27,552 bases of DNA from a virus. Made by a program: the position numbers and the translations under genes. Shown piece after piece: positions 5,826-22,492 of the stretch; position 1 is the stretch's first letter; each line of letters starts with the position of its first letter. The notes below the pieces were generated by a model. It was not told the origin of the DNA and made no database searches. It saw only the letters and a list, made by a program, of their open reading frames with translations. The stretch lies in the IMG/VR virus record IMGVR_UViG_3300042891_000672, positions 1 to 27,552 of that record. One strand, written 5' to 3'.

Positions 5826-5830
5826 ATATT

Positions 5831-6292: not shown

Positions 6293-6300
6293 AAGACATA

Positions 6301-6308
6301 TATTTATA
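6301..6308 (+). promoter_or_regulatory. TATTTATA element (candidate late promoter)
   Basis: TATTTATA 20 nt before the ATG at 6329, the same spacing as before the gene at 2371. Function inferred from recurrence. Confidence 0.4.
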
Positions 6309-6328
6309 ACAAAAATAATTATAATAAC

Positions 6329-6877
6329 ATGACAAAAATACTAAACGAGCAATTCAATAGAATGCAAAAATTAGCAGGTTTAATTACTGAAAATAAAATT
6401 AGTGAAGAAACCCTAAACGAAAACAGATACAGAGCATCAGATTTCCCTGAAGTAACTGGATTTGAAGAAGATAATAATGAAGCAATCATTACTTTCTCTG
6501 ACGGTACTAAAGATGTAGTTGGACCAAGAAATTTTGCTAATAAAGAAGCAGGATATACTAAGTTCCTTGAGTTATTAAATACTATGGGTACCGATTCTAA
6601 AGCTAAACAAGCGGTAAGTGATTTCTTAGAAATTAAAAAATTCAATGTACTTAGTACAAGTGATATTAATAAACTTTTAGCTGACAATGGTGTAGATGAA
6701 GAATATTTCTCAGCTATGGGTGGTAAAGAAATTGAAGGAGGAACAGAGACATGGATAGATATAATAGAAGATATTATAGGTAAACCATATGACTCCAACA
6801 ACATCAGTAAAAAGGATGATATGAAAATACAAACATTCATGAATCATCTAAGCCGTTTAGGTATTGAAGTAGTATAA
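6329..6877 (+). CDS. Putative capsid-targeted internal protein with RMQKLAGLITE leader (182 aa)
   Basis: The N-terminus contains FNRMQKLAGLITE, almost the same as KRMQQLAGLLTE at the start of the protein at 12473, although the two proteins are otherwise unrelated. This points to an exchangeable leader with a predicted cut after ITE (residue 21). The mature part has a small beta segment (EAIITFSDGTKDVVGPRNFA) that could bind DNA or protein, then helices (KAKQAVSDFLEIKKF, SDINKLLADNGVDEEYF). No catalytic motif was recognised. The gene ends 11 nt before a strong terminator, so it is the last gene of its transcription unit. The start is fixed by the leader and the AATAAC-ATG context. Confidence 0.65.
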   Translation: MTKILNEQFNRMQKLAGLITENKISEETLNENRYRASDFPEVTGFEEDNNEAIITFSDGTKDVVGPRNFANKEAGYTKFLELLNTMGTDSKAKQAVSDFLEIKKFNVLSTSDINKLLADNGVDEEYFSAMGGKEIEGGTETWIDIIEDIIGKPYDSNNISKKDDMKIQTFMNHLSRLGIEVV

Positions 6878-6888
6878 AAGATATAAGT

Positions 6889-6913
6889 AAGCTTGGTTCG
6901 CCAAGCTTTTTTT
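6889..6913 (+). terminator. Rho-independent terminator
   Basis: A perfect 8-bp stem AAGCTTGG / CCAAGCTT closed by a UUCG tetraloop (6889-6908) and followed by a run of five T. This is the clearest terminator of the window and ends the unit of the gene at 6329. Confidence 0.9.
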
Positions 6914-6922
6914 ATTATAATA
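6913..6922 (+). promoter_or_regulatory. Palindromic TATTATAATA element
   Basis: A 10-bp perfect palindrome containing TATAAT (6916-6921), 7 nt before the primase ATG and directly after the terminator. Longer versions (ATATTATAATAT) precede the genes at 20687 and 23247. Candidate early/middle promoter -10 element or operator; no matching -35 box seen. Confidence 0.35.
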
Positions 6923-6928
6923 TAATTA

Positions 6929-7849
6929 ATGGTCAACCAACTGCTTGTCACATTAATTAATTCAACATTAGGAACAGGTAAACCTACAGCAAGAAGTAAT
7001 TATGCTTATACTTGTCCTAAATGTAATCATCATAAACCAAAACTAGAAATATGTTTAGATGAGAATAGTCCTGACTTCCAAAAATTTGGTTGTTGGGTGT
7101 GTAAATTCAAAGGTAAGAAATTAATAAATTTATTCAAATCAATATCTGCTCCATCAGATAAAATACTTGAATTAAAGTCATTAGTTAAAATCAATACACC
7201 TATTGAACAACAAATAGTTGATGAAAAAATTAAATTACCTGATGAGTTCCAACATATATTAAATAATCCATCATTTTCAGCTAAACGTGCCTTAACTTAT
7301 CTAAAAAGTAGAGGATTAACTGAAGATGATATTATAAAATATGGTATAGGATATTGTGAAACTGGAAAATACACTGATATGGTTATTATCCCTTCATACA
7401 ATGACTCAGGTATTTTAAATTATTTTGTTGGTAGAAGTTATATACCTGAATCAAATAGAAAACTAAATCCAAGTGTTTCACGTAATATAATACCTTTTGA
7501 AATATTTATAAATTGGAATTCACCAATCATACTATGTGAAGGTATGTTTGATGCAATTTCAATTAAACGTAATGCTATACCACTATTAGGTAAAAACATA
7601 CAATCAAAGTTAATGTCTAAAATAGTTTCATCTACTGTTAAAAAGGTATATATAGCTTTAGATAAAGACGCTATTAAACAAGCACTTGATTTTTGTGAAC
7701 AACTTATTAATGAAGGTAAAACAGTACATTTAATAGAACTAGAAGACAAAGATCCAAATGAAATGGGATTTAAATCTTTTATTAAGCTACTATACAATTC
7801 AACACCTCTAACATACTCAGGTTTATTAGAGAAAAAACTACAGTTATGA
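6929..7849 (+). CDS. DNA primase, DnaG type with zinc ribbon and TOPRIM (T4 gp61-like role)
   Basis: An N-terminal zinc-binding motif is visible: CPKC (residues 29-32), His 34/35 and CWVC (55-58). This is followed by a primase RNA-polymerase-type core with YLKSRGLTEDDIIKYGIGYC, IIPSYNDSGILNYFVGRSY, then the TOPRIM motifs ILCEGMFDAIS (Glu about 204) and YIALDKDA (Asp about 245 and 247). It synthesises RNA primers at the replication fork and would act with a phage helicase, which is not in this window. Length (306 aa) is close to phage primases. The start follows a terminator and a TATAAT-containing palindrome, so this gene probably opens an early or middle transcript. It overlaps the following nuclease gene by 4 nt (ATGA), implying translational coupling. 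Confidence 0.9.
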   Translation: MVNQLLVTLINSTLGTGKPTARSNYAYTCPKCNHHKPKLEICLDENSPDFQKFGCWVCKFKGKKLINLFKSISAPSDKILELKSLVKINTPIEQQIVDEKIKLPDEFQHILNNPSFSAKRALTYLKSRGLTEDDIIKYGIGYCETGKYTDMVIIPSYNDSGILNYFVGRSYIPESNRKLNPSVSRNIIPFEIFINWNSPIILCEGMFDAISIKRNAIPLLGKNIQSKLMSKIVSSTVKKVYIALDKDAIKQALDFCEQLINEGKTVHLIELEDKDPNEMGFKSFIKLLYNSTPLTYSGLLEKKLQL

Positions 7850-8613
7850 GTCAAATAAAACACTCTTACAATAGAATCTTAGAAATATCTGATGATCATA
7901 AACAGATAACATTACCTGATTCTAGGTATTACCGCCGTAATGGTAACTATTATCCAAGTGTAACTTATGTATTAAGTTACTATCCAAAAGGTAAATATTT
8001 TGAAGACTGGTTAAAAAAAGTAGGTTACTCAGCAGAATACATTGTTAAGAAAGCTGCTGAAGAAGGTACTCAAGTACATGAAATGATTGAGGAATATTTA
8101 AATGGAAATGAAGTTAATTTCTTAAATCAACAAGGTTATCCTCAATATGACCCAGATGTATGGCAAATGTTTTTACGTTTTGTTGAATTTTGGGAAACAT
8201 ATAATCCTAAACTAATTGAAACTGAAGTTCATTTATTTTCAGATGAACTTAAAGTAGCAGGTACTTGTGACTTAATATGTGAAATTGATGGTAAATTATG
8301 GTTAATTGATTTTAAAACATCAAATCATATTCAATCAACATATGAATTACAAACAGCAGTTTATGGACAATGTTACAAAGAATGTTATGGTAAAGATGTT
8401 GACCATTATGGTATATTATGGTTAAAATCAACTAAACGTAAACTAAACAAAGAAAAAATGAGTGGTAAAGGATGGGAAGTAGTAATATCAGAACGTACAC
8501 ATGAAGAAAATATAGACATATTTAAAACTGTGAAACGTTTATTTGATTTAGAAAATCCACAGTCTTCACCAATATTTACTGAATTCGTCACAACCGCTAA
8601 ACGAAAAATATAA
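7846..8613 (+). CDS. PD-(D/E)XK nuclease of the RecB/Cas4 type
   Basis: All RecB-family motifs are visible in order: GTQVHEMIEEYL (motif I, His), GTCDLICEIDG (Asp), LWLIDFKTSN (the D-x-K core, IDFKTS) and ELQTAVYGQCY (QxxxY). Family members are single-strand-specific or 5'-3' exonucleases used in recombination, end processing or DNA metabolism. The N-terminal part (YYRRNGNYYPSVTYVLSYYP) is the one typical of phage homologues. Length 255 aa is normal. It overlaps the primase stop by 4 nt and so is probably cotranslated with it, placing it in replication/recombination. There is no cysteine cluster of the Cas4 iron-sulfur kind, so it is probably an iron-free enzyme. Confidence 0.85.
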   Translation: MSQIKHSYNRILEISDDHKQITLPDSRYYRRNGNYYPSVTYVLSYYPKGKYFEDWLKKVGYSAEYIVKKAAEEGTQVHEMIEEYLNGNEVNFLNQQGYPQYDPDVWQMFLRFVEFWETYNPKLIETEVHLFSDELKVAGTCDLICEIDGKLWLIDFKTSNHIQSTYELQTAVYGQCYKECYGKDVDHYGILWLKSTKRKLNKEKMSGKGWEVVISERTHEENIDIFKTVKRLFDLENPQSSPIFTEFVTTAKRKI

Positions 8614-8630
8614 CTCCGCTTATTTACTAA

Positions 8631-8638
8631 TATTTATA
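8631..8638 (+). promoter_or_regulatory. TATTTATA element upstream of a hairpin
   Basis: TATTTATA 42 nt before the ATG at 8681. Unlike the other copies, a terminator-like hairpin lies between it and the gene. Candidate promoter with a structured leader, or a chance match. Confidence 0.3.
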
Positions 8639-8666
8639 AGAGACTTGGACTCCCCAGGTCTCTTTA
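8638..8666 (+). terminator. Terminator hairpin (possible attenuator)
   Basis: An 11-bp stem AAGAGACTTGG / CCAGGTCTCTT with one G-T pair and a 5-nt loop, followed by a T-rich tail (TATTATAT). It ends the primase-nuclease unit. Because TATTTATA lies just before it, it could also sit in the leader of the gene at 8681. Confidence 0.75.
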
Positions 8667-8680
8667 TTATATTTACATTG

Positions 8681-9505
8681 ATGATAAAACTTGTAGAACT
8701 GTTAAAAGAGATATCCCAAAATAAAATGGTGATCATGGCTGGTGGAGCAGGCGCTGGGAAATCATATCTTCTTAATAATATTAAATCAAAAGTACCTGGT
8801 GTTAAAATTCTTAATCCTGACACTTATGTTGAGGATAAAGACAGTCCAATGTATAATAACTTAACTAAAGCATCATCTCAAATTGATGATGTAGATGTAC
8901 CTAATGCTATAGCTAGTGGTGAATCATTTATTTGGGACACAACAGCATCTAATGCTGCTAAAATGTTAGGTGGAGAATATCGCCGTAAACAAGTAAAAGG
9001 TATATTAAACACAGAAGGTTATGATGAAATGATGGTAATGGTTTATACACACCCTATAGTATCATTTTTACGTAATTTTAAACGTGAACGTAAAGTACCT
9101 ACAGTAGGTGTATTATCAACATGGAACAATGTTTATGGTAATATAGAGGCATATAAAAATAAATTAGGTGATAATTTTATATTATACCAAGCACCTGATA
9201 AAGAATATCAAAAACAAATTGATGAATTTAATGAGGCTGCTAAAAATAATAAATTAAAAGAATATTTTGAAAATCTATTATCATCAGGTGAGTTCAGATC
9301 AACATTTAGAAAAGATAAACCTGAACCTCAAACACCAGAAGAAATAGAAAAAGCTGAGAAACAGAAAGCACAGTCTAAAGCATTGGTTGATGCTCAAATA
9401 GATAAACTTGAAAAAGAGTTTATGAATATTGAAAACAAAGTTAAAGACTCAGTCATAACAGATGAAAATGAAGTAATAAATAAGGTAGTTAATTTTATAA
9501 AATGA
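8681..9505 (+). CDS. Zeta-toxin-like P-loop kinase with capsid-targeting-like leader (274 aa)
   Basis: I place the start at ATG 8681 rather than an in-frame upstream ATG at 8645 that lies inside the terminator hairpin. From 8681 the protein begins MIKLVELLKE, the same leader class as the genes at 5361, 18251 and 18948. A Walker A motif GGAGAGKS (residues 21-28) follows directly, then LNPDTYVEDKD, SFIWDTTASN and an RERKVPTVGVLSTWNNVY block. These resemble the Zeta-toxin/polynucleotide-kinase-like group of P-loop kinases, which phosphorylate sugar nucleotides or nucleic-acid ends. The C-terminal 70 residues are a charged helical tail. It overlaps the next gene by 4 nt. Function (toxin, nucleotide kinase or RNA-end kinase) is open; the leader suggests virion packaging. 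Confidence 0.7.
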   Translation: MIKLVELLKEISQNKMVIMAGGAGAGKSYLLNNIKSKVPGVKILNPDTYVEDKDSPMYNNLTKASSQIDDVDVPNAIASGESFIWDTTASNAAKMLGGEYRRKQVKGILNTEGYDEMMVMVYTHPIVSFLRNFKRERKVPTVGVLSTWNNVYGNIEAYKNKLGDNFILYQAPDKEYQKQIDEFNEAAKNNKLKEYFENLLSSGEFRSTFRKDKPEPQTPEEIEKAEKQKAQSKALVDAQIDKLEKEFMNIENKVKDSVITDENEVINKVVNFIK

Positions 9506-11070
9506 GTTTAGGCAAATATATAGCAGAAATAATAATTGAACCTACCCCTAAAAAAGTAGCTTTATACCCAGGAGCATTCAAACCACCTCATAGAGGCCAT
9601 TTTGAATTAGTACAACGTTTATCTAAAGTAGCAGATGAAGTACTAATAGTTATTTCACCTATTGCTCGTGATGGAATAACAGCTCAACAATCTCTATCAG
9701 CATGGAAATTGTATTTACCTTTATTACCTAAAGCTAAAGTTATTATATCAAATGTAGCTTCACCTGTATCATATGTTTATGATTATATTAAATCAAACCC
9801 ACAACAAGACATAGTGGTAGCATTTGGAAAAGGTGAAGAAGAACGTTATAAAGCGCTTTTAAACAAAGAAAAATACTCTAATGTTAAAGTATATGATGCT
9901 GGTAATATAGATGATTTAAGCGCGTCTAATTTACGTAATGCTATTAATTCAAACAACCCAGCTGAAATAGCTAAATTCTTACCTCAAGATATTGAAGTAG
10001 CAGATTATGTGAATGCATTAGGTATAAACTTAAGAACCGAACCTCCATTTAATTCAATAGCTGAAGAAGGTTCATTGGTTAAAAAAGCAAAAACACCTAA
10101 AGGACAATTTCTTAAAAACTGGGGTATTGATATGTATGCTCTTGAATTAGCTAGAGGATTAGAAGAAAACACAACTCCAGACTTAACATTTGATCAAGCA
10201 TTAACTAGTTTAACTCAATACTTTGTAAAACAAGGTTTTCCTGTTAATCCATTACCTAAAGTTATTATTAATGATAAAGACCAAGAAAATGCTTCTAAAC
10301 TATTAGGTAAAACTGCTTATTATGATCCTAATAAAAAAGAAATAACATTATTTACATTAGGTAGACATCCAAAAGATATATTACGTTCTTTTGCTCATGA
10401 AATGATTCATCATATTCAAAACATGAAAGGTCAAATTCATGATGTAGATACTACTGACACAACATCAAATGATTATTTAAGTCATCTTGAACAAGAAGCA
10501 TATACTCAAGGTAATATGACTTTTAGAAACTGGGAAGATAAAATAAAAAACAATAAGGTTATGAATGAAGAAAAAGAAAAATCAAAATACACAATATTCT
10601 GTGATATGGATGGTGTGTTAGTTGATTTTGATAAGGGTTATGAAGATTTAACTGGTTTACATACTAAACATGCTGATGTACAAGACAATAAAGTTTTTTG
10701 GAATAAATTTAAACAAAGTTTAGGCGATAAAAACATGACTGAATATGATTATTGGGCTAAATTAGATTGGATGCCTGATGGTAAAGAATTATGGAAGTAT
10801 ATAAAACAATATAACCCATACATTCTTACAGCTCCTTCATTAAACCCAGAATCTAAAGAAGGTAAAAAAGCCTGGGTGACTCGTTTAGACAATATGAAAA
10901 ATATATATTTTAGACCTGCTCAATATAAGTCTGATTTTTCAAATGAAAATCGTATACTTATTGATGATAGGGCTGATACTATTGAAAGATGGAACGCTAA
11001 AGGTGGTATTGGTATTTTACATACTTCAGCTGCTGATACAATTAAACAACTTAAAAAATTAGGACTATAA
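9502..11070 (+). CDS. Three-domain fusion: nucleotidyltransferase, HExxH metallopeptidase-like, HAD phosphatase
   Basis: Residues 1-13 (MSLGKYIAEIIIE) look like a leader with a hydrophobic-x-Glu end. Residues 18-175 are a cytidylyltransferase/NMN-adenylyltransferase-like domain: YPGAFKPPHRGH (HxGH, His 30 and 33) and the C-terminal SASNLRNAI motif. Residues about 195-345 contain FAHEMIHHIQN (HExxH, His 299 and 303) and LEQEAYTQGN, whose Glu is a plausible third zinc ligand. Residues 363-522 form a HAD domain: IFCDMDGVLVDFD (nucleophile Asp 368), the LTAPS motif and ILIDDRAD. The HAD part resembles 5'(3')-deoxyribonucleotidases. Possible protease sites (SIAE-E, VMNE-E) lie exactly between the domains. 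Substrates are unknown; nucleotide, NAD or RNA-end metabolism are the reasonable options. Confidence 0.8.
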   Translation: MSLGKYIAEIIIEPTPKKVALYPGAFKPPHRGHFELVQRLSKVADEVLIVISPIARDGITAQQSLSAWKLYLPLLPKAKVIISNVASPVSYVYDYIKSNPQQDIVVAFGKGEEERYKALLNKEKYSNVKVYDAGNIDDLSASNLRNAINSNNPAEIAKFLPQDIEVADYVNALGINLRTEPPFNSIAEEGSLVKKAKTPKGQFLKNWGIDMYALELARGLEENTTPDLTFDQALTSLTQYFVKQGFPVNPLPKVIINDKDQENASKLLGKTAYYDPNKKEITLFTLGRHPKDILRSFAHEMIHHIQNMKGQIHDVDTTDTTSNDYLSHLEQEAYTQGNMTFRNWEDKIKNNKVMNEEKEKSKYTIFCDMDGVLVDFDKGYEDLTGLHTKHADVQDNKVFWNKFKQSLGDKNMTEYDYWAKLDWMPDGKELWKYIKQYNPYILTAPSLNPESKEGKKAWVTRLDNMKNIYFRPAQYKSDFSNENRILIDDRADTIERWNAKGGIGILHTSAADTIKQLKKLGL

Positions 11071-11071
11071 T

Positions 11072-11602
11072 ATGATTAAAAGATTAGTAACAGACTCACC
11101 AGAAACACTACAGTCAGTAGTTGGTAATATTAAATCTTTCTTCAGTAAAACTGATAGTAAGGGTAAACCATACAAATATACAATGAAAGCAACTACTGAA
11201 AAACGTAAATTTGTAAATCCTGAAACAAAAAATATTGAAGAAAAAGATATTGAAGTATTAAACATAACTGATATTGAATCAAAAGATCAAGTCACTGTTA
11301 AAATGATTCCACTTATTAAACCAGGTGAAATGCGTTTTGAAATTGGTGGTGAAGGTGAAACAACAATATCCGCTAAAATTAAAGATGCTATAGCAGGTAA
11401 AGGACAATGGAAAGATTATAAAAAAGATACTTTAAAAACTAAACTTAAAGAAAATATTAGTAAACTTAAAGAAGAATCAGTATTTAAAATTGATCCTGAA
11501 TTAGCATTCAAAATATATAATATATTAAGTACTGATTTCCCAGAAATAGGAAATGAACATACTAAAAGTTCATTCTTTTATTACTTAAATAACAAGTTAT
11601 AA
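11072..11602 (+). CDS. Hypothetical protein (176 aa)
   Basis: I do not recognise this protein. It begins MIKRLVTDSPETLQSVVGNI and has a lysine-rich beta-prone central part (KPYKYTMKATTEKRKFVNPE, DIEVLNITDIESKDQVTVKM, GEMRFEIGGEGETTISAKI). It ends with a helical tail containing FKIDPELAFKIYNIL. No leader with a clear Glu site, no membrane segment and no catalytic motif are visible. It starts 1 nt after the stop of the fusion gene and shares one base with the next start (TAATG), so it belongs to the 8681-12168 operon and is probably translationally coupled on both sides. Confidence 0.6.
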   Translation: MIKRLVTDSPETLQSVVGNIKSFFSKTDSKGKPYKYTMKATTEKRKFVNPETKNIEEKDIEVLNITDIESKDQVTVKMIPLIKPGEMRFEIGGEGETTISAKIKDAIAGKGQWKDYKKDTLKTKLKENISKLKEESVFKIDPELAFKIYNILSTDFPEIGNEHTKSSFFYYLNNKL

Positions 11603-12168
11603 TGTTAAATAAAGAGTTTCAAAAGAAAGATGTCCAACGCCTCCGTAACCTTGTAAAGGGTAAATATGGTGAAAAAACAACAGTTGGAATAGGTTATACC
11701 AAAAAACATGACCAATATGAAGAAGGTGATGTTTGGGAAGAAAATGGACGCACATGGACTATTAAAAATGGTATAAAACAAAATATAACTAAATTGGATA
11801 AAGCTAAAGAGTTATATGTTATGCCTTTATTATGTCCTAAGTGTAATAAACCCATGAGGGTTCATATTGATAAGTCTTTTTATAATGTTCACAAAAGCTG
11901 TATGAATTGTGTTGTTGAATTTGAGACAAAATTAAAAGCAGAAGGCAAGTGGGAAGACTATCAGAAACAAATGTACAATCAAGCCCTGGATAATCTTATT
12001 AATAACTTTAAAGATTGGGCTGATGATGAGTTAAAAGAAAGTAATTCATCATTTGTAACTGAGGATGGTGTTGTGGAGAATTGGATTGGTGGTAATAAGG
12101 AAAAACTAAAACAAAATGTTGAGGAATCAATAGAGTATTTAGAAAAACTAAAACATCAATCTGAATAA
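11602..12168 (+). CDS. Zinc-ribbon phage protein (188 aa), function unknown
   Basis: Contains a CPKC motif (LLCPKCNKPM) and a CMNC motif (KSCMNCVVEFE) about 25 residues apart, enough for a four-cysteine zinc ribbon. Before it lies a conserved-looking block (EEGDVWEENGRTWTIKNGIK, QNITKLDKAK), which I associate from memory with hypothetical proteins of T4-like cyanophages. After it the protein is helical and acidic (EGKWEDYQKQ, LINNFKDWADDELKES). No nuclease or polymerase motif is seen; nucleic-acid binding is a fair guess from the ribbon. Its ATG overlaps the previous stop by one base. A 7-bp inverted repeat follows the stop. Confidence 0.65.
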   Translation: MLNKEFQKKDVQRLRNLVKGKYGEKTTVGIGYTKKHDQYEEGDVWEENGRTWTIKNGIKQNITKLDKAKELYVMPLLCPKCNKPMRVHIDKSFYNVHKSCMNCVVEFETKLKAEGKWEDYQKQMYNQALDNLINNFKDWADDELKESNSSFVTEDGVVENWIGGNKEKLKQNVEESIEYLEKLKHQSE

Positions 12169-12173
12169 TTTTA

Positions 12174-12191
12174 ATGTAGTTAACACTACAT
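12174..12191. repeat. Perfect inverted repeat ATGTAGT-TAAC-ACTACAT
   Basis: A 7-bp stem with a 4-nt loop just after the zinc-ribbon gene. There is no T-run after it, so it may be a weak terminator, an mRNA-end hairpin or a protein-binding site. Confidence 0.5.
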
Positions 12192-12221
12192 ATGTTTCAC
12201 CTAATTAAATAAACATGGACA

Positions 12222-12443
12222 GTGATAAACAACCAACAAAAGACAAACCTCGAAGTTTTAACTCAAATATTACTCATGGCTGGAATGTTCTTCAATCCAT
12301 TAGGCTTCGATATCCTTTTTTATTCAGTGATGAAACTCACGAATTCTTATTGGATTACAACATCTCTTTTTTACCTGGCATCAGCTTCGTGCTTTGGAGT
12401 GTATTACTTCTTGCGTAAGAAATTAAAGAATAACAAACCTTAA
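12222..12443 (+). CDS. Small membrane protein with two predicted transmembrane helices (73 aa)
   Basis: Two hydrophobic segments are clear: ILLMAGMFFNPLGFDILFY (about residues 16-34) and SYWITTSLFYLASASCFGVY (about 42-61), followed by a positively charged tail RKKLKNNKP that should stay in the cytoplasm. The reading frame has no ATG before the first helix; the only good start is GTG at 12222. An ATG at 12215 lies in another frame, whose product is less protein-like. So the start is either GTG or the two frames are joined by a frameshift or sequence error. Small two-helix phage membrane proteins may act in lysis control, superinfection or host-membrane remodelling; nothing here decides this. 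Confidence 0.55.
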   Translation: MINNQQKTNLEVLTQILLMAGMFFNPLGFDILFYSVMKLTNSYWITTSLFYLASASCFGVYYFLRKKLKNNKP

Positions 12444-12445
12444 CA

Positions 12446-12453
12446 TATTTATA
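12446..12453 (+). promoter_or_regulatory. TATTTATA element (candidate late promoter)
   Basis: TATTTATA 19 nt before the ATG at 12473, matching the spacing at 2371 and 6329. Confidence 0.4.
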
Positions 12454-12472
12454 CCATATAATATATACTATA

Positions 12473-13120
12473 ATGGAACAATTTAAAAGAATGCAACAAT
12501 TAGCTGGTTTACTTACTGAAGGTATGGCTGCGTACGAATATGAAAAAGGTAAAGAAGCTGGTGAAAAAGCTGAAAAGAAAAAAATGAAAAAATCTGAATT
12601 AAAAAAACAGATTAAAGAAATGATCTTAGCTGAGATAGATATTGATTTATCTAACACTGATAGTTTTTATGACCCAGTTTATGAAGCTAAGAAAAAGAAA
12701 AAAGACGAAGAAGAAGTAGAAATATCAGCCACTGAAGAAATCCCAGCTGGTGAAGAAACACCTATTACTGAACCTACTTCACCATCATATGATGTTCAAA
12801 AAGAATTAATGGACGCATTAAACGCGGCTAAGTCAATCGGTGATGAAAAATTAGTTCGCCAAATTGGTAATGCGTTAACATACTTCACTCGTACACAAGT
12901 AGCTAAAGAAGAAAATCCACCTGCAATGAAAGAAGCATTAAGTATGGATGCTATGGAACGTATGGAAGGATTAGCTAATATACAAGATTTATATATCTTT
13001 AAAAAGAAACTCAACGCATTAACCTTAGATTGGACGCAAGACGGATTTGAGAAAGAAGATATTATTGAATATATATCTGAACTTATTAATCAGAGTACTA
13101 CACTTAATTATATAAAATAA
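12473..13120 (+). CDS. Putative capsid-targeted protein with two leader-like segments (215 aa)
   Basis: Begins with FKRMQQLAGLLTE (predicted cut after Glu 16), near-identical to the leader of the gene at 6329. A second leader-like stretch, MKKSELKKQIKEMILAE (residues 38-54), matches the other leader class seen at 17141 and 17536. So this protein carries both types in tandem, separated by a very Lys/Glu-rich linker (EKGKEAGEKAEKKK). An acidic Thr/Pro-rich linker (about residues 78-105) follows. The C-terminal half (YDVQKELMDALNAAKSIGDE, LVRQIGNALTYFTR) is a helical domain I do not recognise. It could be a scaffold or core component as well as cargo. It is followed 5 nt later by the H1-like gene. 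Confidence 0.65.
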   Translation: MEQFKRMQQLAGLLTEGMAAYEYEKGKEAGEKAEKKKMKKSELKKQIKEMILAEIDIDLSNTDSFYDPVYEAKKKKKDEEEVEISATEEIPAGEETPITEPTSPSYDVQKELMDALNAAKSIGDEKLVRQIGNALTYFTRTQVAKEENPPAMKEALSMDAMERMEGLANIQDLYIFKKKLNALTLDWTQDGFEKEDIIEYISELINQSTTLNYIK

Positions 13121-13125
13121 ACAAC

Positions 13126-13296
13126 ATGAAACAAGAGTTATTCGAAAAAATGCAACAAACATGGGATATGTTGGTTGCTGAGCACAACGGTAAAAGTAAA
13201 GCTGCTCAAGGTCGCGCTAGAAAATTAGCAAGTGAATTAAAAAAATTAGCAACTGAATATAAAAAAGCATCAGTAGCTGAAGCAAAAGCTCAATAA
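13126..13296 (+). CDS. Histone H1-like (Hc1-type) small basic protein, 56 aa
   Basis: A short ORF with ATG at 13126 and TAA at 13294-13296. The product begins MKQELFEKMQQTWDMLVAE and continues NGKSKAAQGRARKLASELKK, then LATEYKKASVAEAK. This closely follows the pattern of the roughly 58-aa histone H1-like proteins common in Bacteroidetes (NGNKAAGxRARK...KEFRKxSVEASK, from memory), which bind and compact DNA. It lies 5 nt after one tagged gene and 1 nt before another. The first 19 residues end in LVAE, so it may also use the leader/cleavage pattern. As a virion protein it could condense packaged DNA or protect it on entry. The host-type sequence argues for acquisition from a Bacteroidetes. Confidence 0.75.
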   Translation: MKQELFEKMQQTWDMLVAEHNGKSKAAQGRARKLASELKKLATEYKKASVAEAKAQ

Positions 13297-13297
13297 T

Positions 13298-14317
13298 ATG
13301 AAACACTCAGACTTAAAAGAAATTGTTAAGAACATTCTGGAAAACAAAATGAACATGCCAGAGGAAAATCCAGTAGATGTAGTAACAATGGATGTTCCAT
13401 TGTTTATTCGTTTATTAGAATATGCTCGTGAAGATGCTAAAACAGATATGGATTTACATGACGTAGCTGAAAAAGCAGTATCTTTAAGTACTGAGGGTAA
13501 AGTATTATCAATGGAAGACTATGATAGTATAGCTCCTACTGAAGAACAAATGAATGAAGACCTAGACATAGGTCATCAAGATGATGAACCTGATATGTTA
13601 AAAGGTGATGTATTCCGCATTGGTCAATATGCTAACGATTTATATAAAATGTTAGATACATTTGATAAAATGCCTGGAGAAGTAGATTTCCCAGATTGGT
13701 GGCAAAATAAAATTCATTTAGCCGCTGATTACATGGACAAAGCTAAACATTACTTAGAACATGAAATGGTACAACCTGCTGTTGATGCATCATTAAGTGA
13801 AGCAACATCTGATGTTCGTTCAATAGCTAGAGAAATAGCTGATGAACTAGAAGCTATGCTTTCATATGATTCTAATGATAAAGGAAAATTAGTTGACACT
13901 GCTATTGTTAAGTATGATTTAACTCCAGACCAACAACAAGATTTAGATTATGAATTATTCATGATTTTAAATAAAGGTGATATGGAAAGATTTGATGATG
14001 GTAGTGAAATGACTGAAAAGAAATTAACAAAAGCTGAACTAAAGAAACGTGAAGAAATAGTTAAGTCAATGAAAGATACTTTTAAAGGACCTAAAGCAGC
14101 TATGTATGCTATAGCTACTGATAAAGCTAAAAAAGTAGCTGAAGTGTTAGCTAAAAAATTAAAAGAAGAACGCTTTAAAAAAGGAACAGACATTGGTAAA
14201 CCTGGTAAAGGATTTGCTAAAATAGCTAAATCTGCTGCTAAACAATATGGCTCAAAAGAAGCTGGCGAACGTGTAGCAGGTGCAATTCTTAAAAAAGTAT
14301 TAGCTAAGAAAAAATAA
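13298..14317 (+). CDS. Putative capsid-targeted protein with basic C-terminal DNA-binding-like region (339 aa)
   Basis: The leader is MKHSDLKEIVKNILE (cut predicted after Glu 15). Residues about 88-158 (LDIGHQDDEPDMLKGDVFRI, GQYANDLYKML, FPDWWQNKIHLAADYMDKAK) form a helical domain I remember as recurring in marine T4-like phages. A second helical domain (SIAREIADELEAMLSYDS) follows a possible cut site SLSE-A (residues 166-170). The C-terminal 100 residues are highly basic, with KGPKAAMYAIATDKAKKVAE and GKGFAKIAKSAAKQYGSKEA, then GERVAGAILKKVLAKKK, suited to DNA binding. It may be a core/scaffold component or an internal DNA-associated protein. Overlaps the next gene by one base. Confidence 0.65.
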   Translation: MKHSDLKEIVKNILENKMNMPEENPVDVVTMDVPLFIRLLEYAREDAKTDMDLHDVAEKAVSLSTEGKVLSMEDYDSIAPTEEQMNEDLDIGHQDDEPDMLKGDVFRIGQYANDLYKMLDTFDKMPGEVDFPDWWQNKIHLAADYMDKAKHYLEHEMVQPAVDASLSEATSDVRSIAREIADELEAMLSYDSNDKGKLVDTAIVKYDLTPDQQQDLDYELFMILNKGDMERFDDGSEMTEKKLTKAELKKREEIVKSMKDTFKGPKAAMYAIATDKAKKVAEVLAKKLKEERFKKGTDIGKPGKGFAKIAKSAAKQYGSKEAGERVAGAILKKVLAKKK

Positions 14318-14781
14318 TGACTAAACAAGAACTAATAGATAAAATTAAATCAATAGCTAGAAACAAATACAAAAAACAAATAACATTTGTTTCAGGTATT
14401 AAATTCACAGCTGTTAGAGCGTTTCCTAAATTGCATGATGTATTAGTTGATTTAATGACTGATGCTTATGAAATTTTTGTAACAGATATTCAATGGGTAG
14501 CACCTAAACCTACTACATTTAGAATTCAATTAGTTAATGGTGAACATTTCTTTTTAACTAATACTGATAGAACATGGATTGCTACAATTGAAGGTAAAAA
14601 GTTCTATTTATTAAACTTAAGTGAAAAACAAGATGCTATAAACGCTATCGCTAGAGTATTAAGATATGGTACAACCAAGAAAGGCACCGAAGGAACCCAA
14701 GGAACAGAAGCAGGCACCGAAGAAATTCCAGCCGAAGCCCCTCCCGCCGAAGAAACACCGGAAGAATTACCGCCAGCCTAA
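14317..14781 (+). CDS. Hypothetical protein with Pro/Glu/Thr-rich tail (154 aa)
   Basis: Not recognised. The N-terminus MTKQELIDKIKSIARNKYKK resembles the helical leaders of its neighbours but lacks the terminal Glu site. The body is a compact alpha/beta-looking domain (FTAVRAFPKLHDVLVDLM, TTFRIQLVNGEHFFL, TWIATIEGKKFYLL). The last 35 residues are a repetitive acidic tail (KGTEGTQGTEAGTEEIPAEA, then PPAEETPEELPPA). The DNA encoding this tail (about 14690-14781) uses GC-rich codons (GCC, CCG, CCC, ACC) unlike the rest of the window. The gene overlaps the previous one by a base and ends 11 nt before the next. Confidence 0.6.
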   Translation: MTKQELIDKIKSIARNKYKKQITFVSGIKFTAVRAFPKLHDVLVDLMTDAYEIFVTDIQWVAPKPTTFRIQLVNGEHFFLTNTDRTWIATIEGKKFYLLNLSEKQDAINAIARVLRYGTTKKGTEGTQGTEAGTEEIPAEAPPAEETPEELPPA

Positions 14782-14792
14782 AACAAAATAGT

Positions 14793-16007
14793 ATGGACGT
14801 ATTAGATCTATTTTTTAAAAAATACTCATATAAATTTTCAAAAGGATATCCTGACATGAATAATGAACAGGATATCTTGTTACTGGAAAATATATTAAAT
14901 GAATTAGGTATAGACTTAAATGAAGGATCAGTTATGAACAACTCAGCGAAAGCTATTAAAAAAATCATTGATTCTTCAGAGGGAAAACAATATAATTTTA
15001 AATTACAAACTGCAAATAATAGGTTAGGTAATTTAGATAAAATATCTAAAGAAGAATTTTTAAATATACTTAACTCAGTATTCCCAAATGTTCCTATTAA
15101 AGTTCATGCTCCAGGTGAAGGACCAAACGTTAAACCTAAAGGTAGTTCTAAATTCAATATGTATGAATTCACTACTGAAGACGGTAATGTTCAAATTATA
15201 CTATCTGGTGGAGCAAATGAAGGAGAAAAATATGAACAATCATTTACTAGTGATTTAAAAGCGTCAGCTGGTAAATCTTTAGAAGATATTGAAAATGAAA
15301 ATGTTAAAAAATTATTCAAATCATTAAATATTAATCCTAAAAATTTAACACCAGAAGATATTGACTTTGCAGGTACAGCTGACACAAAACGATCTCTTAG
15401 TTTTACTAATTTAGAGAATATTGGTAAAAAAATAGCTGATGTTATTATAAATTATAAAGGTAAAGAATATTATATATCATTAAAAAATATATCTGGACAT
15501 ACTTTTTATAATGGAGGTAATGTTCCATTTATAGTATTTGATAAAAATAGTAAAGTAATCTTTGATAAATCTAAATATAATAATAATGAAATAATCAAAA
15601 CATTGTTTGAAATATTTAACATAGATATTAATAAAGTAACCCAAGGATTAAATGAATATATAGCTGGAGAAGGTGATATTCCTAATAGTTTTGAACCAGT
15701 TAATAATGTTAATATTAACGCTATTAAAAATATGATAACATCAGGTTTTGGATATGGTTACTATTATGTTAAAGAAAAAAAAGATGGTTTAAGTATAATA
15801 CCTCTTTTAACACAAGAAGACGCATATAAAGCTATAGGAGATATATCATCTGCTTCTATAAAATACCCTAATTCTGAAACAAAATCTCTAACTATTAAAG
15901 TACCTTTAGATAGTGAAATATTTGGAAAAGTAGATTGTTTGATAGAAATAAGAAATACAACAGGTAATGTTTTACCATTGTCTCTTAAAATAAAAACTAA
16001 CAAATAA
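14793..16007 (+). CDS. Probable PD-(D/E)XK-like nuclease with leader-like N-terminus (404 aa)
   Basis: The central region has the layout of a PD-(D/E)XK-type nuclease: NEGEKYEQSFTSDLKAS (Glu about 145/148), DIDFAGTADTKRSLSF, then IADVIINYKGKEYYISLKN, where Asp 216 and S-x-Lys 231 fit the D-x(n)-xLK core, followed by GHTFYNGG. I recall this block from hypothetical restriction-endonuclease-like proteins of marine phages; the assignment is by motif only. Two starts are possible: ATG 14793, or ATG 14856 (residue 22). From the second, the protein starts MNNEQDILLLENILNEL and ends its leader in DLNE-G, like its tagged neighbours. A 9-bp inverted repeat surrounds the second ATG. It would cleave DNA in the host cell if injected. 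Confidence 0.6.
   Translation: MDVLDLFFKKYSYKFSKGYPDMNNEQDILLLENILNELGIDLNEGSVMNNSAKAIKKIIDSSEGKQYNFKLQTANNRLGNLDKISKEEFLNILNSVFPNVPIKVHAPGEGPNVKPKGSSKFNMYEFTTEDGNVQIILSGGANEGEKYEQSFTSDLKASAGKSLEDIENENVKKLFKSLNINPKNLTPEDIDFAGTADTKRSLSFTNLENIGKKIADVIINYKGKEYYISLKNISGHTFYNGGNVPFIVFDKNSKVIFDKSKYNNNEIIKTLFEIFNIDINKVTQGLNEYIAGEGDIPNSFEPVNNVNINAIKNMITSGFGYGYYYVKEKKDGLSIIPLLTQEDAYKAIGDISSASIKYPNSETKSLTIKVPLDSEIFGKVDCLIEIRNTTGNVLPLSLKIKTNK
14845..14876. repeat. Inverted repeat around an internal start codon
   Basis: GATATCCTG (14845-14853) and CAGGATATC (14868-14876) form a perfect 9-bp stem; its 14-nt loop contains the ATG at 14856, an alternative start of the nuclease-like gene. Confidence 0.55.
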
Positions 16008-16015
16008 TATTTATT
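16008..16015 (+). promoter_or_regulatory. TATTTATT variant element 3 nt before an ATG
   Basis: AATATTTATTACC-ATG mirrors AATATTTATAACC-ATG at 5361 with one change. Confidence 0.3.
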
Positions 16016-16018
16016 ACC

Positions 16019-17128
16019 ATGAATAACATCAAAAAAATAATTAAAGAAATTATACAACAACGTAATCTTAAAAAAGATTGTGGTTGTGGATGTAATGGTA
16101 AATGTGGAAAAAATGAGGCACCAATGTTAAATGAAAATTTAACACACAAGTCTTTAATTAGTGAACACATGCAATATCATATTGATAATAAATTGGCTCT
16201 TACCGAAAATACATTTCGTTATGGATCTACATCATTCCTTAATTTATGGAAAGAAGCCAGAAAATTATACTCACGCAACTTACTTGAAGTATCAGGTTTA
16301 GATAAAGATATAATAGTTGAAACTAATTTAGGTGAATACGGTATATATGAAGGTCAAGAAGTACCATTAGATTTACCTATGATTGAAGAAGGTCAAATGT
16401 TAGATAACTATGAAGTTGATTTTTTTCATACTAAAGCTAATGTATATGCTAATATAGAAATACCTAGTGAAAATCCAACATTTGAAGATGATCTTCAAAT
16501 AAAAGGAATAGGTAAAACTGAAGAAGAAGCATTTGAAGATTTAAAACAAAATTACAATAATTACAAGAAAACAGGAATAAATGAAGCTGAGTATGATTTC
16601 AATATCAATAAGGTATGGGATTTTATAGAATCACGACCATTTAATAATCCTAATTATATGCCCAAATTTAGCACAGCTAAAGAAATATGGGATGAATGGG
16701 GAGATAAAGAAAAACAATTATATAGTGATTTCCAATGGGAAGATAAATATAATGGTCAATTACACCCTAAAGAAAAAGCTAATCTTCAACGTAGAAAAAA
16801 TTATGATACTTTAGCAGGAATAAACGAAGCTGAATACCAAGGTAAAGATGTTCAACTTAATAAACCTAAACGTGGTGGATCTAAAAAATTCTATGTTTAT
16901 GTAATGGATCCTAAAACTAAACGTGTTAAAAAAGTATCATTTGGAGCTGCAGGTGGAGGTCAAAACTTAGCAGTTAAAATTAGAGATCCTAAAGCACGTA
17001 GAGCATTCGCTTCACGTCAAAACTGTGATAAGAAAAAAGACAGAACAAAACCCGGTTACTGGAGTTGTAACATAGGCAGATATTGGAAATCATTAGGTGG
17101 CGGTTCAAATTTTAGCGGATATTGGTAA
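16019..17128 (+). CDS. Putative internal virion polyprotein with repeated protease sites (369 aa)
   Basis: Begins with the helical leader MNNIKKIIKEIIQQ, then a cysteine-rich knot CGCGCNGKCG (residues 21-30) that could bind metal. Along the chain several segments end in hydrophobic-x-Glu: MLNE-N (36-39), LISE-H (46-49), ALTE-N (60-63), and two copies of INE-AEY (187-192 and 268-273). Those two match the T4 prohead-protease rule (I/L)xE-A well. Two aromatic/acidic regions follow (WDFIESRPFNNPNYMPKF, EIWDEWGDKEKQLYSDFQW). The C-terminal 90 residues are basic (GGSKKFYVYVMDPKTKRVKK, KIRDPKARRAFASRQNC, RTKPGYWSCNIGRYW), a domain I recall from marine phage and other large-virus proteins. Probably processed into several internal peptides; this is inference. 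Confidence 0.65.
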   Translation: MNNIKKIIKEIIQQRNLKKDCGCGCNGKCGKNEAPMLNENLTHKSLISEHMQYHIDNKLALTENTFRYGSTSFLNLWKEARKLYSRNLLEVSGLDKDIIVETNLGEYGIYEGQEVPLDLPMIEEGQMLDNYEVDFFHTKANVYANIEIPSENPTFEDDLQIKGIGKTEEEAFEDLKQNYNNYKKTGINEAEYDFNINKVWDFIESRPFNNPNYMPKFSTAKEIWDEWGDKEKQLYSDFQWEDKYNGQLHPKEKANLQRRKNYDTLAGINEAEYQGKDVQLNKPKRGGSKKFYVYVMDPKTKRVKKVSFGAAGGGQNLAVKIRDPKARRAFASRQNCDKKKDRTKPGYWSCNIGRYWKSLGGGSNFSGYW

Positions 17129-17130
17129 AA

Positions 17131-17138
17131 TATAAATA
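17131..17138 (+). promoter_or_regulatory. TATAAATA, the T4 late-promoter word
   Basis: An exact TATAAATA lies 2 nt before the ATG at 17141. It matches the T4 late -10 element, but the spacing leaves no leader, and such words are frequent in AT-rich DNA. Confidence 0.2.
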
Positions 17139-17140
17139 AC

Positions 17141-17503
17141 ATGAAAAAATCAGAATTAAAAAATATTATTAGAGAAGAAATATCTAAAGTATTAAATGAA
17201 TCTTATTATGCATATTTAGGTGGTAACACTAATTACACAGATGAAGAAATGCGTCGAAATATAATTGATAAAGAGTTTGGTAAAGATAATTACAATGCAT
17301 ATATTATGTTTGATGAAACTGCTCCAAAAGGACAGTATGATGCGATGAAAGCTAAATATGCAAAGGACACATCTAACTGGGAAGTACTTTGGAGGTCACA
17401 ATCGTATCAATCTGAAGCTGTTCTTTCACCTGATAAAAAAGTCATCAAAGCTAAGGTATTTGGTAAAGGAGGAATTATAGGAGCACTTTATATAAAAAAA
17501 TAA
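17141..17503 (+). CDS. Putative capsid-targeted small protein (120 aa)
   Basis: The first 20 residues, MKKSELKNIIREEISKVLNE followed by Ser, are a long form of the leader, with a cut predicted after LNE. The rest is a small alpha/beta protein (DEEMRRNIIDKEFGKDNYNA, NWEVLWRSQSYQSEAVLSPD, VIKAKVFGKGGIIGALYIKK) that I do not recognise. The start of the leader reappears as an internal segment in the protein at 12473 (MKKSELKKQ) and, modified, at 17536 (MKLSELKQ). It stands 12 nt after the polyprotein gene. Confidence 0.65.
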   Translation: MKKSELKNIIREEISKVLNESYYAYLGGNTNYTDEEMRRNIIDKEFGKDNYNAYIMFDETAPKGQYDAMKAKYAKDTSNWEVLWRSQSYQSEAVLSPDKKVIKAKVFGKGGIIGALYIKK

Positions 17504-17535
17504 AAATACTATAGAATATACATACAACAAATAAC

Positions 17536-17886
17536 ATGAAACTATCAGAATTAAAACAACATATTAAAGAAGAATATTCATCAGCTTCAAAACTGTATGA
17601 AATCGATGGTATCATAGTTATTGATACTGACGTAGCATTCCATAAACAAATTATGTCAGATATTCGTGCTATTAAAGGTGTAACAATTGTTAAAGATTAT
17701 ATTTATGAACCAGTAGGTGCTGCTGAAAATAGAGGATATGCTGAGTTAAGTATTAAAATAGATCCATCACCATTTGAAAATAGTGATCCTAAAGTTATTA
17801 CTAATACCGTAATTAGAGATATTAAAGCAACTAAAGGTGTACGCGCGTTTAAATTAAAACAAGGACCTAGTCTAACCACAGTATAA
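17536..17886 (+). CDS. Putative capsid-targeted small protein with ferredoxin-like pattern (116 aa)
   Basis: The leader is MKLSELKQHIKEE followed by Tyr; its last segment lacks a strong hydrophobic residue two before Glu, so the cut site is less certain. The remaining 100 residues show a beta-alpha-beta pattern twice (GIIVIDTDVAFHKQIMSDI, GVTIVKDYIYEP, YAELSIKIDPSP, KVITNTVIRDIKATKGVRAF), suggesting a small ferredoxin-like fold. No catalytic residues were recognised. Overlaps the next start by one base (TAATG), implying coupled translation with the basic cysteine-rich protein. Confidence 0.6.
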   Translation: MKLSELKQHIKEEYSSASKLYEIDGIIVIDTDVAFHKQIMSDIRAIKGVTIVKDYIYEPVGAAENRGYAELSIKIDPSPFENSDPKVITNTVIRDIKATKGVRAFKLKQGPSLTTV

Positions 17887-18254
17887 TGGATTTACGTAAA
17901 TTAGTTAAAGAAGTATTAAACGAACAGAAAGCAAAACGTGACAGATGTTTACGTATTGCTGACCGTAAGTTTGATAAACCATCTGCTTATAAATCAGGTG
18001 CTGTAGTTAGATGCCGTCAAGGTAAAATATGGAAAGGCCTAAAAGAAGACGAATCACTTCATAAATGGTTTAAACGTCAAGGTACACCAGGTAAAGAAGG
18101 TGGATGGGTAGATTGTAATACTTGTAGAGACGGTAAATGTAAAGCATGTGGTAGAAAAAAAGGTGAAAAACGTGCTAAATACCCTTCATGCCGTCCAACA
18201 CCAGCACAATGTAAACAACCAGGTAAAGGTAAAAAATGGGGGAAAACAAAATGA
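17886..18254 (+). CDS. Tagged basic cysteine-rich protein (DUF5872-like), 122 aa
   Basis: The leader is MDLRKLVKEVLNE (predicted cut after Glu 13). The rest is strongly basic with seven cysteines. The C-terminal part (LHKWFKRQGTPGKEGGWVDC, NTCRDGKCKACGRKKGEKRA, KYPSCRPTPAQCKQPGKGKK) closely follows a domain I remember as DUF5872, known from marine phages and giant DNA viruses (KWVD...CGRKKGE...YPxCRPT). The N-terminal half (CLRIADRKFDKPSAYKSGAV, VRCRQGKIWKGL) is another short basic block. The cysteines may bind zinc; DNA binding is likely from charge. Overlaps the previous and following genes by 1 and 4 bases. Confidence 0.7.
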   Translation: MDLRKLVKEVLNEQKAKRDRCLRIADRKFDKPSAYKSGAVVRCRQGKIWKGLKEDESLHKWFKRQGTPGKEGGWVDCNTCRDGKCKACGRKKGEKRAKYPSCRPTPAQCKQPGKGKKWGKTK

Positions 18255-18955
18255 TTAAGTTAATAGATTTATTAATTGAAATAGGTGTAGATCTATCTAA
18301 TTATAAAGGACAGATATTAAAAGGAGATGTTGTCCGAGCACCTAAAAATTTTCCATTAAGTGGAGAAAAACTTGATAAATCATTATCCCTTAAAGTGACT
18401 AAGATATCTAGAGAAGGTGTTAATAGATATAAATTATCTTTAGAAGATACTAAAACAGGTAAAAAATATACAATTAGAAACTATCAAATGGATGGTGAGT
18501 ATAAAGGTAAAAAATTACCTAAATGGGGTTTGGTAAGAAAATCTAAAGAAAATACTAAAGAAGCATCTAATCCACAAGCAGGAACAGCCATACCTTATGG
18601 ATCAGGATTTGCTCCTGTAAAAGAAACTAAAAGAATACCTCGTAAATCAGGTCAACCTGCTAAATCAAGTAAACATTCTGATCTTTATACAGATGAAGAT
18701 CCTAAAGGAACTATTACTGGTTTAGGTTTTAAAGATGCTGCTACAGCTAAACAAGGTATATCTAAAATAAATAAAGCTAAAACAACTCATGCTCATAAAG
18801 TACAAGCCACTTTAGTGATGAAACAAAGAGCAAAAGTAGCTATAGAAAGAACTAAAGATCCTGAAAAGAAAAAGAAATTAAAATCTGCTTATCAGATTTG
18901 GTCTAAAAAATTAGAACAATTAAAGCGTAAAACTAAACGATTAAAAAATGATTAA
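18251..18955 (+). CDS. Tagged basic protein with C-terminal HSDLYTDEDPKGT domain (234 aa)
   Basis: I choose ATG 18251 (ATGA overlap with the previous stop) over the in-frame ATG at 18236. From 18251 the protein opens with MIKLIDLLIE, the leader class of 5361, 8681 and 18948. Residues about 15-100 are a beta-rich segment (ILKGDVVRAPKNFPLSGEKL, YKLSLEDTKTGKKYTI) that resembles small nucleic-acid-binding barrels, but this is a guess. The C-terminal 95 residues (SKHSDLYTDEDPKGTITGLG, FKDAATAKQGISKINKAKTT, HAHKVQATLVMKQRAK) match a domain I recall as widespread in marine phages and some bacteria, of unknown function. The end is very basic (KRKTKRLKND). It overlaps the superoxide dismutase gene by 8 nt. 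Confidence 0.65.
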   Translation: MIKLIDLLIEIGVDLSNYKGQILKGDVVRAPKNFPLSGEKLDKSLSLKVTKISREGVNRYKLSLEDTKTGKKYTIRNYQMDGEYKGKKLPKWGLVRKSKENTKEASNPQAGTAIPYGSGFAPVKETKRIPRKSGQPAKSSKHSDLYTDEDPKGTITGLGFKDAATAKQGISKINKAKTTHAHKVQATLVMKQRAKVAIERTKDPEKKKKLKSAYQIWSKKLEQLKRKTKRLKND

Positions 18956-19649
18956 ATTAACAGATATATTAAAAGAAGTATCTAAAGAAAAAATTCAACG
19001 TTTAGAAAAAACAAACAATGAGCAAAAACAAGATATAAAATTTAAAGTACCAAAATTAAATTATTCATATACTTCTCTTCAACCTTATATAGATAAGGAA
19101 ACTATGGAAGAACATTTTGATAAACATTTTAAAGGATACACAGATAAACTTAATGCTGAATTAGATGAAAAATCTATCAGAGTAAATGCTGAAGATCAAA
19201 CCCAAGCTATTCAAATAATATTAGGTAAATATCCTAAAAATGATATTATTAGAAATAATGGTGGTGGTTTTTATAATCATGTCTTGTATTTTGAAAACAT
19301 TACACCCGACTATAAGGCACCTTCAACTAAATTTAGAAAAATGTTAGAGGAAAACTTTAAGTCATTTTCTGAATTTAAAGAACAATTTAAAGAAGCTGGT
19401 TTGAAACAATTTGGTTCGGGTTGGGTATTTTTAATTAAAAAAGGAAATAAATTAGTTATAGAATCTTATCCTAATCAAGATAATCCATATTTAGATAAAG
19501 ACTTTAAAGGTAAAATTTTAATTGCTATGGATGTTTGGGAACATGCTTATTATTTAAAACACAAATCCCAAAGAGGAAATTATATTAATGATTTTTTTAG
19601 AGTAGTAGATTATAAAGTAGCAGAAGAAAGATTAGAATTATTAGATTAA
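18948..19649 (+). CDS. Mn-type superoxide dismutase with capsid-targeting-like leader
   Basis: Residues 1-10 (MIKLTDILKE) are the shared leader, then a charged linker to about residue 33. The dismutase follows: YSYTSLQPYI, METMEEH-type helix with His 56, second-sphere Tyr 64, NNGGGFYNHVLYF with His 111, FGSGWVFLIKK, PNQDNPYL, and MDVWEHAYYL with Asp 195 and His 199. All four metal ligands are present. The Gly-Gly before the second His and the Gln in PNQD are the manganese-type pattern. The enzyme converts superoxide to hydrogen peroxide and oxygen. A normal dismutase has no such 30-residue N-terminal extension. The gene overlaps a tagged gene by 8 nt. If packaged, the enzyme could protect the virion DNA or counter a host oxidative response. 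Confidence 0.88.
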   Translation: MIKLTDILKEVSKEKIQRLEKTNNEQKQDIKFKVPKLNYSYTSLQPYIDKETMEEHFDKHFKGYTDKLNAELDEKSIRVNAEDQTQAIQIILGKYPKNDIIRNNGGGFYNHVLYFENITPDYKAPSTKFRKMLEENFKSFSEFKEQFKEAGLKQFGSGWVFLIKKGNKLVIESYPNQDNPYLDKDFKGKILIAMDVWEHAYYLKHKSQRGNYINDFFRVVDYKVAEERLELLD

Positions 19650-19665
19650 TAATAAATAAAAAATA

Positions 19666-20286
19666 ATGTTAAACTCAGACATTCCTAGTTTTAAAGCACT
19701 AGTCCGCAAATCATATTTTACTAAAAATCCTAAAGACTCAAACGAGTTTTATAATGTATATGTTTTTGGACTTCAATCTTGCGCTGGGGTTATATTAACA
19801 TTTCATGTTATGACAGACAATGGAATGGTTCGTTCTAGAGTTCCAATATCAGAAATTTATACAAAAGTCCCAACGAATGATATACCATTTAATTATAAAC
19901 AACTTTGGGATTGTTTTAGTGAAAATGTATCTGTTACAACATATGATTTTTTAGCATTTCATAGAGCACAAGTTGTTTTAAGAGATGGTAGCAAAGTTTG
20001 GGGTACATATTTATTCACGGTAGATTGGTTTGATAATCCATATAGTGATGAGCCATCAGACTATAAATGTGGACACATATTTAAAGCAGATGATGGATAT
20101 TTAATGTGTCAACCAAATAATAGATTATTTTGGAAGGATTCAAATTGGGTAACTAAAAAATTACCTGAAGATTTAAAACAATTTAAAGTAGATACTGAAT
20201 TACCATCAGTTGAAAATCGGTCAGATAGATGGGTAACTGAAGATGGAGATTCATTTTATTATGATATAAATGAAACCATACACTGA
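19666..20286 (+). CDS. Conserved phage hypothetical protein (206 aa)
   Basis: The opening MLNSDIPSFKALVRKSYFTK and the later blocks (VYVFGLQSCAGVILTFHVMT, LWDCFSENVSVTTYDFL, YKCGHIFKADDGYLMCQPNN, RLFWKDSNW) are ones I recognise from memory in hypothetical proteins of T4-like cyanophages. The protein is aromatic-rich and beta-prone, with no leader, membrane segment or known catalytic motif. It follows the dismutase gene by 16 nt and overlaps the next gene by 17 nt, suggesting coupled translation. The function is unknown. Confidence 0.65.
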   Translation: MLNSDIPSFKALVRKSYFTKNPKDSNEFYNVYVFGLQSCAGVILTFHVMTDNGMVRSRVPISEIYTKVPTNDIPFNYKQLWDCFSENVSVTTYDFLAFHRAQVVLRDGSKVWGTYLFTVDWFDNPYSDEPSDYKCGHIFKADDGYLMCQPNNRLFWKDSNWVTKKLPEDLKQFKVDTELPSVENRSDRWVTEDGDSFYYDINETIH

Positions 20287-20530
20287 CATAGAAGTTACAG
20301 ACAAATATATTATTCGCGAATTTAGCGAAAATGTAGATCCAATTGAATTATTATGGCATCGTGATGATGAAAACCGTGTTGTTGAAATATTAGGTGAGAC
20401 AGATTGGAAACTACAACTTGACAATCAGTTGCCAACTTCTATAAATTCCCCAATATTTATATCAAGACACGAGTGGCATCGTGTTATTAAAGGAACAGGA
20501 ACATTAAAATTGAAGATACATAAATCATGA
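20270..20530 (+). CDS. Conserved small phage protein (86 aa)
   Basis: Starts inside the end of the previous gene (17-nt overlap, different frame). The product contains KYIIREFSENVDPIELLWHR, then ENRVVEILGETDWKLQLDNQ and ISRHEWHRVIKGTGTLKLKI, which I recall as a small conserved phage protein usually next to the same neighbour. The length (86 aa) and the His/Trp/Arg pairs might suit a small cupin-like or regulatory fold, but this is speculation. Followed by a 156-nt non-coding stretch holding a TATTTATA element and hairpins. Confidence 0.6.
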   Translation: MKPYTDIEVTDKYIIREFSENVDPIELLWHRDDENRVVEILGETDWKLQLDNQLPTSINSPIFISRHEWHRVIKGTGTLKLKIHKS

Positions 20531-20547
20531 AAAAACAAGTAATATAA

Positions 20548-20555
20548 TATTTATA
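20548..20555 (+). promoter_or_regulatory. TATTTATA element without a following protein gene
   Basis: TATTTATA lies 17 nt after the stop at 20530. Between it and the terminator-like hairpin at 20617 there is no ORF, so if active it would make a short RNA. Confidence 0.3.
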
Positions 20556-20561
20556 ATTAGA

Positions 20562-20652: not shown

Positions 20653-20676
20653 GCTTTAACACAAAATAATATTATT

Positions 20677-22488: not shown

Positions 22489-22492
22489 GGTA

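Follow-up and report, generated by a model that had tools for sequence, protein, structure and literature searches.

The window, the whole 27,552-nt stretch of viral DNA analysed here (IMG/VR record IMGVR_UViG_3300042891_000672), carries at 13126-13296 (+) an open reading frame with an ATG start and 56 codons, whose product is MKQELFEKMQQTWDMLVAEHNGKSKAAQGRARKLASELKKLATEYKKASVAEAKAQ. It is tightly flanked by ORFs at 12473-13120 and 13298-14317, all three on the plus strand. The coordinates, the 56-aa length and the motifs quoted in the first-pass annotation, including LVAE at residues 16-19, were all confirmed. Pairwise comparison of the gene, here called hc1, with three close relatives gives dN of 0.04-0.07 and dS of 0.54-0.60; since dN is far below dS, this is a real protein-coding gene under purifying selection. 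The product has a net charge of +5 and a pI of 9.8, with residues 20-56 at net +7; the net charge of its relatives is mostly just +1 to +4. Length stays within 55-62 aa throughout 90 phage-type rows, with neither end extended. The features discussed below are:

12473-13120, plus strand: upstream tagged gene, N-terminus MEQFKRMQQLAGLLTE followed by G, LTE at residue 16; next to hc1 in close relatives too
13126-13296, plus strand: hc1-like gene, 56 aa, single Hc1 (PF07432) domain (ORF, Pfam, dN/dS, AlphaFold2)
13126-13182, plus strand: residues 1-19, once proposed as a leader ending in LVAE, predicted as helix 1 of the Hc1 domain (AlphaFold2, alignments)
13195-13293, plus strand: residues 24-56, predicted basic helix 2, with the family core KAAxxRARK...KKL...YKKAS.AEAK (alignment, charge, AlphaFold2)
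13298-14317, plus strand: downstream tagged gene, N-terminus MKHSDLKEIVKNILE followed by N, ILE at residue 15; next to hc1 in close relatives too
25383-26975, plus strand: T4-type large terminase subunit, with 59.6% identity to the terminase of Flavobacterium phage immuto
26989-27552, plus strand: portal protein gene, truncated at the end of the window (sequence match)

As had also been noted at first pass, hc1 lies between two tagged genes, both neighbours carrying an N-terminal [LI]xE. The T4 prohead protease cleaves after L/I-x-E, and T4 internal proteins have propeptides of 10-19 residues (PMC9026906). An [LI]xE ending at residues 9-24 is present in 17 of the 35 window genes, as against a mean of 6.2 and a maximum of 15 in 2000 shuffles; tags likewise occur in 164 of 437 neighbours of hc1 relatives from the corresponding terminase-proximal tagged region (the “cargo” context; 84.8 expected), but in just 54 of 264 neighbours of relatives from replication modules (46.6 expected). 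As a pattern, the tags on the genes around hc1 are genuine, and they may be capsid-targeting sequences. Across 5361-24823 the tags are 10-24 residues long and end in [LI]xE (e.g. MKKSELKNIIREEISKVLNE, RMQKLAGLITE and MDLRKLVKEVLNE), on bodies that are otherwise unrelated; they look like a T4-type capsid-targeting or propeptide system serving a broad and diverse set of cargo proteins. The gene at 24035-24823 probably starts downstream of the listed position; translation from an internal ATG yields MKQNKLREIIREELDAVLDE, which is a typical tag. The gene at 21157-22488, whose product resembles pyridine-nucleotide/FAD oxidoreductases (PF07992), lies near the terminase in about 20 relatives and is an unusual enzyme to find among late structural genes. 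Searches of relatives' records for a gp21-type prohead protease (PF03420) were positive in 8 of 10 and, with E <= 0.01 required, in 7 of 13, the gene lying further on past the portal gene; the window ends before its expected place. Both the major capsid protein and the prohead protease of immuto have an L/I-x-E near the N-terminus.

Family membership and predicted fold

The Bacteroidetes Hc1-type identity proposed at first pass is upheld by several profile comparisons. The 56-aa protein scores 28.3 bits (E 1.6e-6) against Pfam family PF07432 (Hc1), above the curated cut-off of 23.5 bits, and the match is near full-length (residues 4-54 align with positions 2-56 of the 57-position profile); the next-best Pfam family reaches only E 0.044. 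All 13 members of an alignment of its relatives (A1) match PF07432 as well. A profile built from only five plasmid-borne Bacteroidota “histone H1” proteins gives the 56-aa protein 25.3 bits, while the top score among 5000 shuffles of its sequence against the same profile is 12.0 bits. Profile-profile comparison of phage Hc1 with Bacteroidota histone H1 gives E 1.9e-13 over 53 columns, and A31-R32-K33, invariant in the phage alignment (A2), aligns with the TRARK core of the cellular proteins. A sequence search of solved structures returned no significant match. On sequence grounds, we assign the product to the Hc1 (PF07432) family. That it is instead an unrelated short basic coiled coil, Hc1-like by composition only, is hardly credible: the protein is short, helical and Lys/Ala/Glu-rich, and helical hairpins are common, yet its score far exceeds those of same-composition shuffles, no other Pfam family comes close, the RARK core, spacing and length are common to annotated histone H1 proteins, and the profile, profile-profile and direct (43% identity) matches lead us to reject this alternative.

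AlphaFold2, run on 30 phage sequences, predicts helices at residues 2-20 and 25-55 (mean pLDDT 96.6), that is, a high-confidence two-helix hairpin in which helix 1 is acidic and helix 2 basic. Fold comparison with solved and viral structures retrieved generic helical hairpins only, and no informative relative.

The prediction bears on a further suggestion of the first-pass annotation, that residues 1-19, ending in LVAE, form a leader. We reject a cleavage leader here: these residues make up helix 1, half of the predicted folded hairpin, and correspond by homology to the N-terminal end of cellular Hc1, which shares the helix; LVAE supplies V-A-E rather than the L/I-x-E of T4-type prohead protease sites; and an L/I-x-E stands at this position in only 1 of 39 distinct relatives from the cargo context. 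None of the phage Hc1 proteins compared has an added N-terminal leader; in immuto an in-frame ATG exists upstream, yet the annotated start is the common one. An L-x-E triplet does occur at residues 9-24 in 46 of 69 distinct phage Hc1 proteins (13.8 in shuffles). The 56-aa protein itself has none within those residues, and has an L-F-E at residue 7 that recurs in replication-context members. Because such triplets recur in relatives of every context, replication included, we take them to reflect the helix rather than processing. The case shows how a genuine N-terminal tag can be told from a helix that only happens to end in xxE.

Relatives, host and genomic contexts

Over its full length, the terminase of the window shares 59.6% identity with that of immuto (vB_FspM_immuto), the best match among 50,697 phage records, and both phages have the gene order primase, exonuclease, NadR/nucleotidase, terminase, portal; judged by its T4-type terminase and portal, the window phage is T4-like. 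Immuto is the nearest cultured phage by Hc1 as well as by terminase, its Hc1 relative (immuto26A_75, annotated “hypothetical protein”) showing 54.5% identity over 98% of the length (7e-11). Relatives of the protein occur in at least 481 IMG/VR stretches and, at a greater distance, in Bacteroidota replicons with the annotation “histone H1”. Plasmid matches were in Bacteroidota in 13 of 13 cases, and Bacteroides alone matched among 14 control genomes. A Bacteroidota host is well supported by these sequence matches at phylum level, and to that level the host hint taken from the protein at first pass holds.

In an unrooted tree on 57 columns, the phage rows split from the plasmid rows with 99% SH-aLRT support. 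Scanning 84,980 prokaryote genomes for phage-type Hc1, by short conserved patterns that would miss ordinary cellular Hc1, retrieved two Neomarinimicrobiota MAG contigs only (L100 and L101); since Hc1 of any kind turned up in just 2 of the 61 genomes searched from that phylum, these are probably phage contigs binned with the MAGs. Given the separate phage branch and the outcome of the scan, the sequences give no sign of recent capture of hc1 from a host. The 635-kb huge-phage record LR745206.1 (L019, L120) has two Hc1 proteins, a phage-branch copy behind a uvsX-like gene and a more divergent one of 71 aa at about 567.4 kb. A literature search for Bacteroidetes Hc1 in phages found no paper, which is not proof of absence; the family itself is known, and we found no prior description of its phage branch in the literature searched.

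We classed 95 loci by marker genes, namely the 80 most similar to an alignment drawn mainly from the cargo context, together with the first loci collected, so that the proportions are biased: 46 lie in the terminase-proximal tagged region, 34 in a replication module (gp32-type SSB, UvsX/RecA, DnaB-type helicase, clamp loader, ribonucleotide reductase NrdAB), 5 behind GroEL and 2 flanked by the prohead protease and scaffold/major capsid genes, with 5 on plasmids and 3 unclassed. These contexts cluster on the Hc1 tree, with few changes between them. The gene stands immediately 3' of a phage GroEL gene in L017 (immuto), L083, L057, L090 and L095, a stable arrangement in that clade, and GroES precedes GroEL in immuto and L083. 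In L099 (5687-11395), and also in L097, it stands between a PF03420 gp21-type protease gene and a putative scaffold gene plus the gp23 major capsid gene. Among 10 contigs chosen by terminase alone and reaching at least 12 kb upstream of it, hc1 was present in 5; it was absent from terminase-picked contigs of 100 and 120 kb. As far as these contig fragments show, hc1 is accessory.

Function and comparison with known systems

The reading we prefer, at about even confidence, is that of a small accessory single-domain nucleoid-associated protein acting in the infected cell. The protein would be made there without a capsid-targeting leader of its own, and would self-associate as the N-terminal domain of chlamydial Hc1 does; its basic helix 2, alone or in oligomeric form, would contact DNA, and the target may be phage DNA that is replicating or about to be packaged, or the host nucleoid. 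The lysine-rich DNA-binding half of chlamydial Hc1 is missing, so DNA binding is not readable from homology; the predicted model makes it plausible by way of basic helix 2 (residues 20-56, +7) and oligomerization, and DNA compaction by the 56-aa protein is something we infer. Position among DNA-handling and head genes fits a DNA-organizing role, location being weak evidence of function.

An unlikely but arguable alternative, raised at first pass, is that the protein is virion cargo, packaged in the head to compact or neutralize the packaged DNA, and entering either by an LVAE-cleaved leader or, leaderless, by binding DNA or a core protein. The two L/I-x-E-tagged genes that flank hc1, the gp21-type prohead protease in relatives of the window phage, the propeptides of T4 internal proteins cut after L/I-x-E (PMC9026906), and the place of hc1 in L097 and L099 between protease and scaffold/major capsid genes all speak for it. 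Against these stand the off-consensus V-A-E, with a site in only 1 of 39 distinct cargo-context relatives; the loss of helix 1 of the predicted domain that a cut at LVAE would entail, a helix that cellular Hc1 also has; and the fact that over a third of the loci sampled place hc1 in replication modules or near GroEL, settings without tag enrichment.

We rate as improbable the proposal that the phage protein is a stripped-down Hc1 that pairs with Hc1-like proteins of the host and so disturbs or redirects its nucleoid or transcription. It consists solely of the part that dimerizes in chlamydial Hc1 (PMC2848022), and it matches the cellular Bacteroidota proteins in size and family; however, those proteins are already single-domain, making the phage protein no truncation of them, and the phage proteins stand clearly apart as a branch (99% support), with 43% identity to the Chryseobacterium protein. 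Equally doubtful in our estimate is a broader idea, of an old phage-specific Hc1 “mini-histone” branch, carried by T4-like phages of Bacteroidota, that coats phage DNA during replication and packaging and, in some lineages, inside the capsid, as a viral chromatin protein.

The Hc1 family is, by the literature searched, hardly studied outside Chlamydia, yet recurs in hundreds of Bacteroidota phage contigs. The cultured phage immuto carries the gene, making DNA binding and virion content directly testable; such tests would show if T4-like phages handle their own DNA with a histone-like protein.

Chlamydial Hc1 combines an N-terminal dimerization domain with a lysine-rich C-terminal DNA-binding domain (PMC2848022). 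Relative to that protein (HctA, NCBIfam NF051889, 121 positions), the phage and Bacteroidota proteins correspond to the N-terminal half only: the 56-aa protein ends at residue 56, without the lysine-rich C-terminal half. The HctA profile gives no match for the 56-aa protein and matches its relatives only up to position 59 of 121. The Bacteroidota “histone H1”/Hc1-like proteins (e.g. Chryseobacterium glaciei WP_066749871.1, 43% identical to the 56-aa protein over 56 columns) are likewise single-domain and mostly 57-58 aa, and share with phage Hc1 the core KAA..RARK...EL.KL..E.RK.S..E.K. Phage Hc1 differs from them in forming a separate branch, in a loop that is mostly shorter, in an invariant His before the loop, and in having ELKKL.TEY where the cellular proteins have ELEKLLKEF.

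Immuto resembles the window phage in its related terminase and in a similar order of primase, NadR, terminase and portal genes, and has a gp21-type protease; its immuto26A_75 (gene 75), however, lies directly behind GroES/GroEL, whereas hc1 of the window is in the terminase-proximal tagged region. Against PF07432, immuto26A_75 scores 21.0 bits, just below the cut-off of 23.5, which may explain why it has gone unnamed. The T4 internal proteins IPI-III, which are capsid-targeted cargo, carry L/I-x-E tags like those of the genes next to hc1; unlike IPI-III, phage Hc1 has neither a separate propeptide nor a conserved cleavage site.
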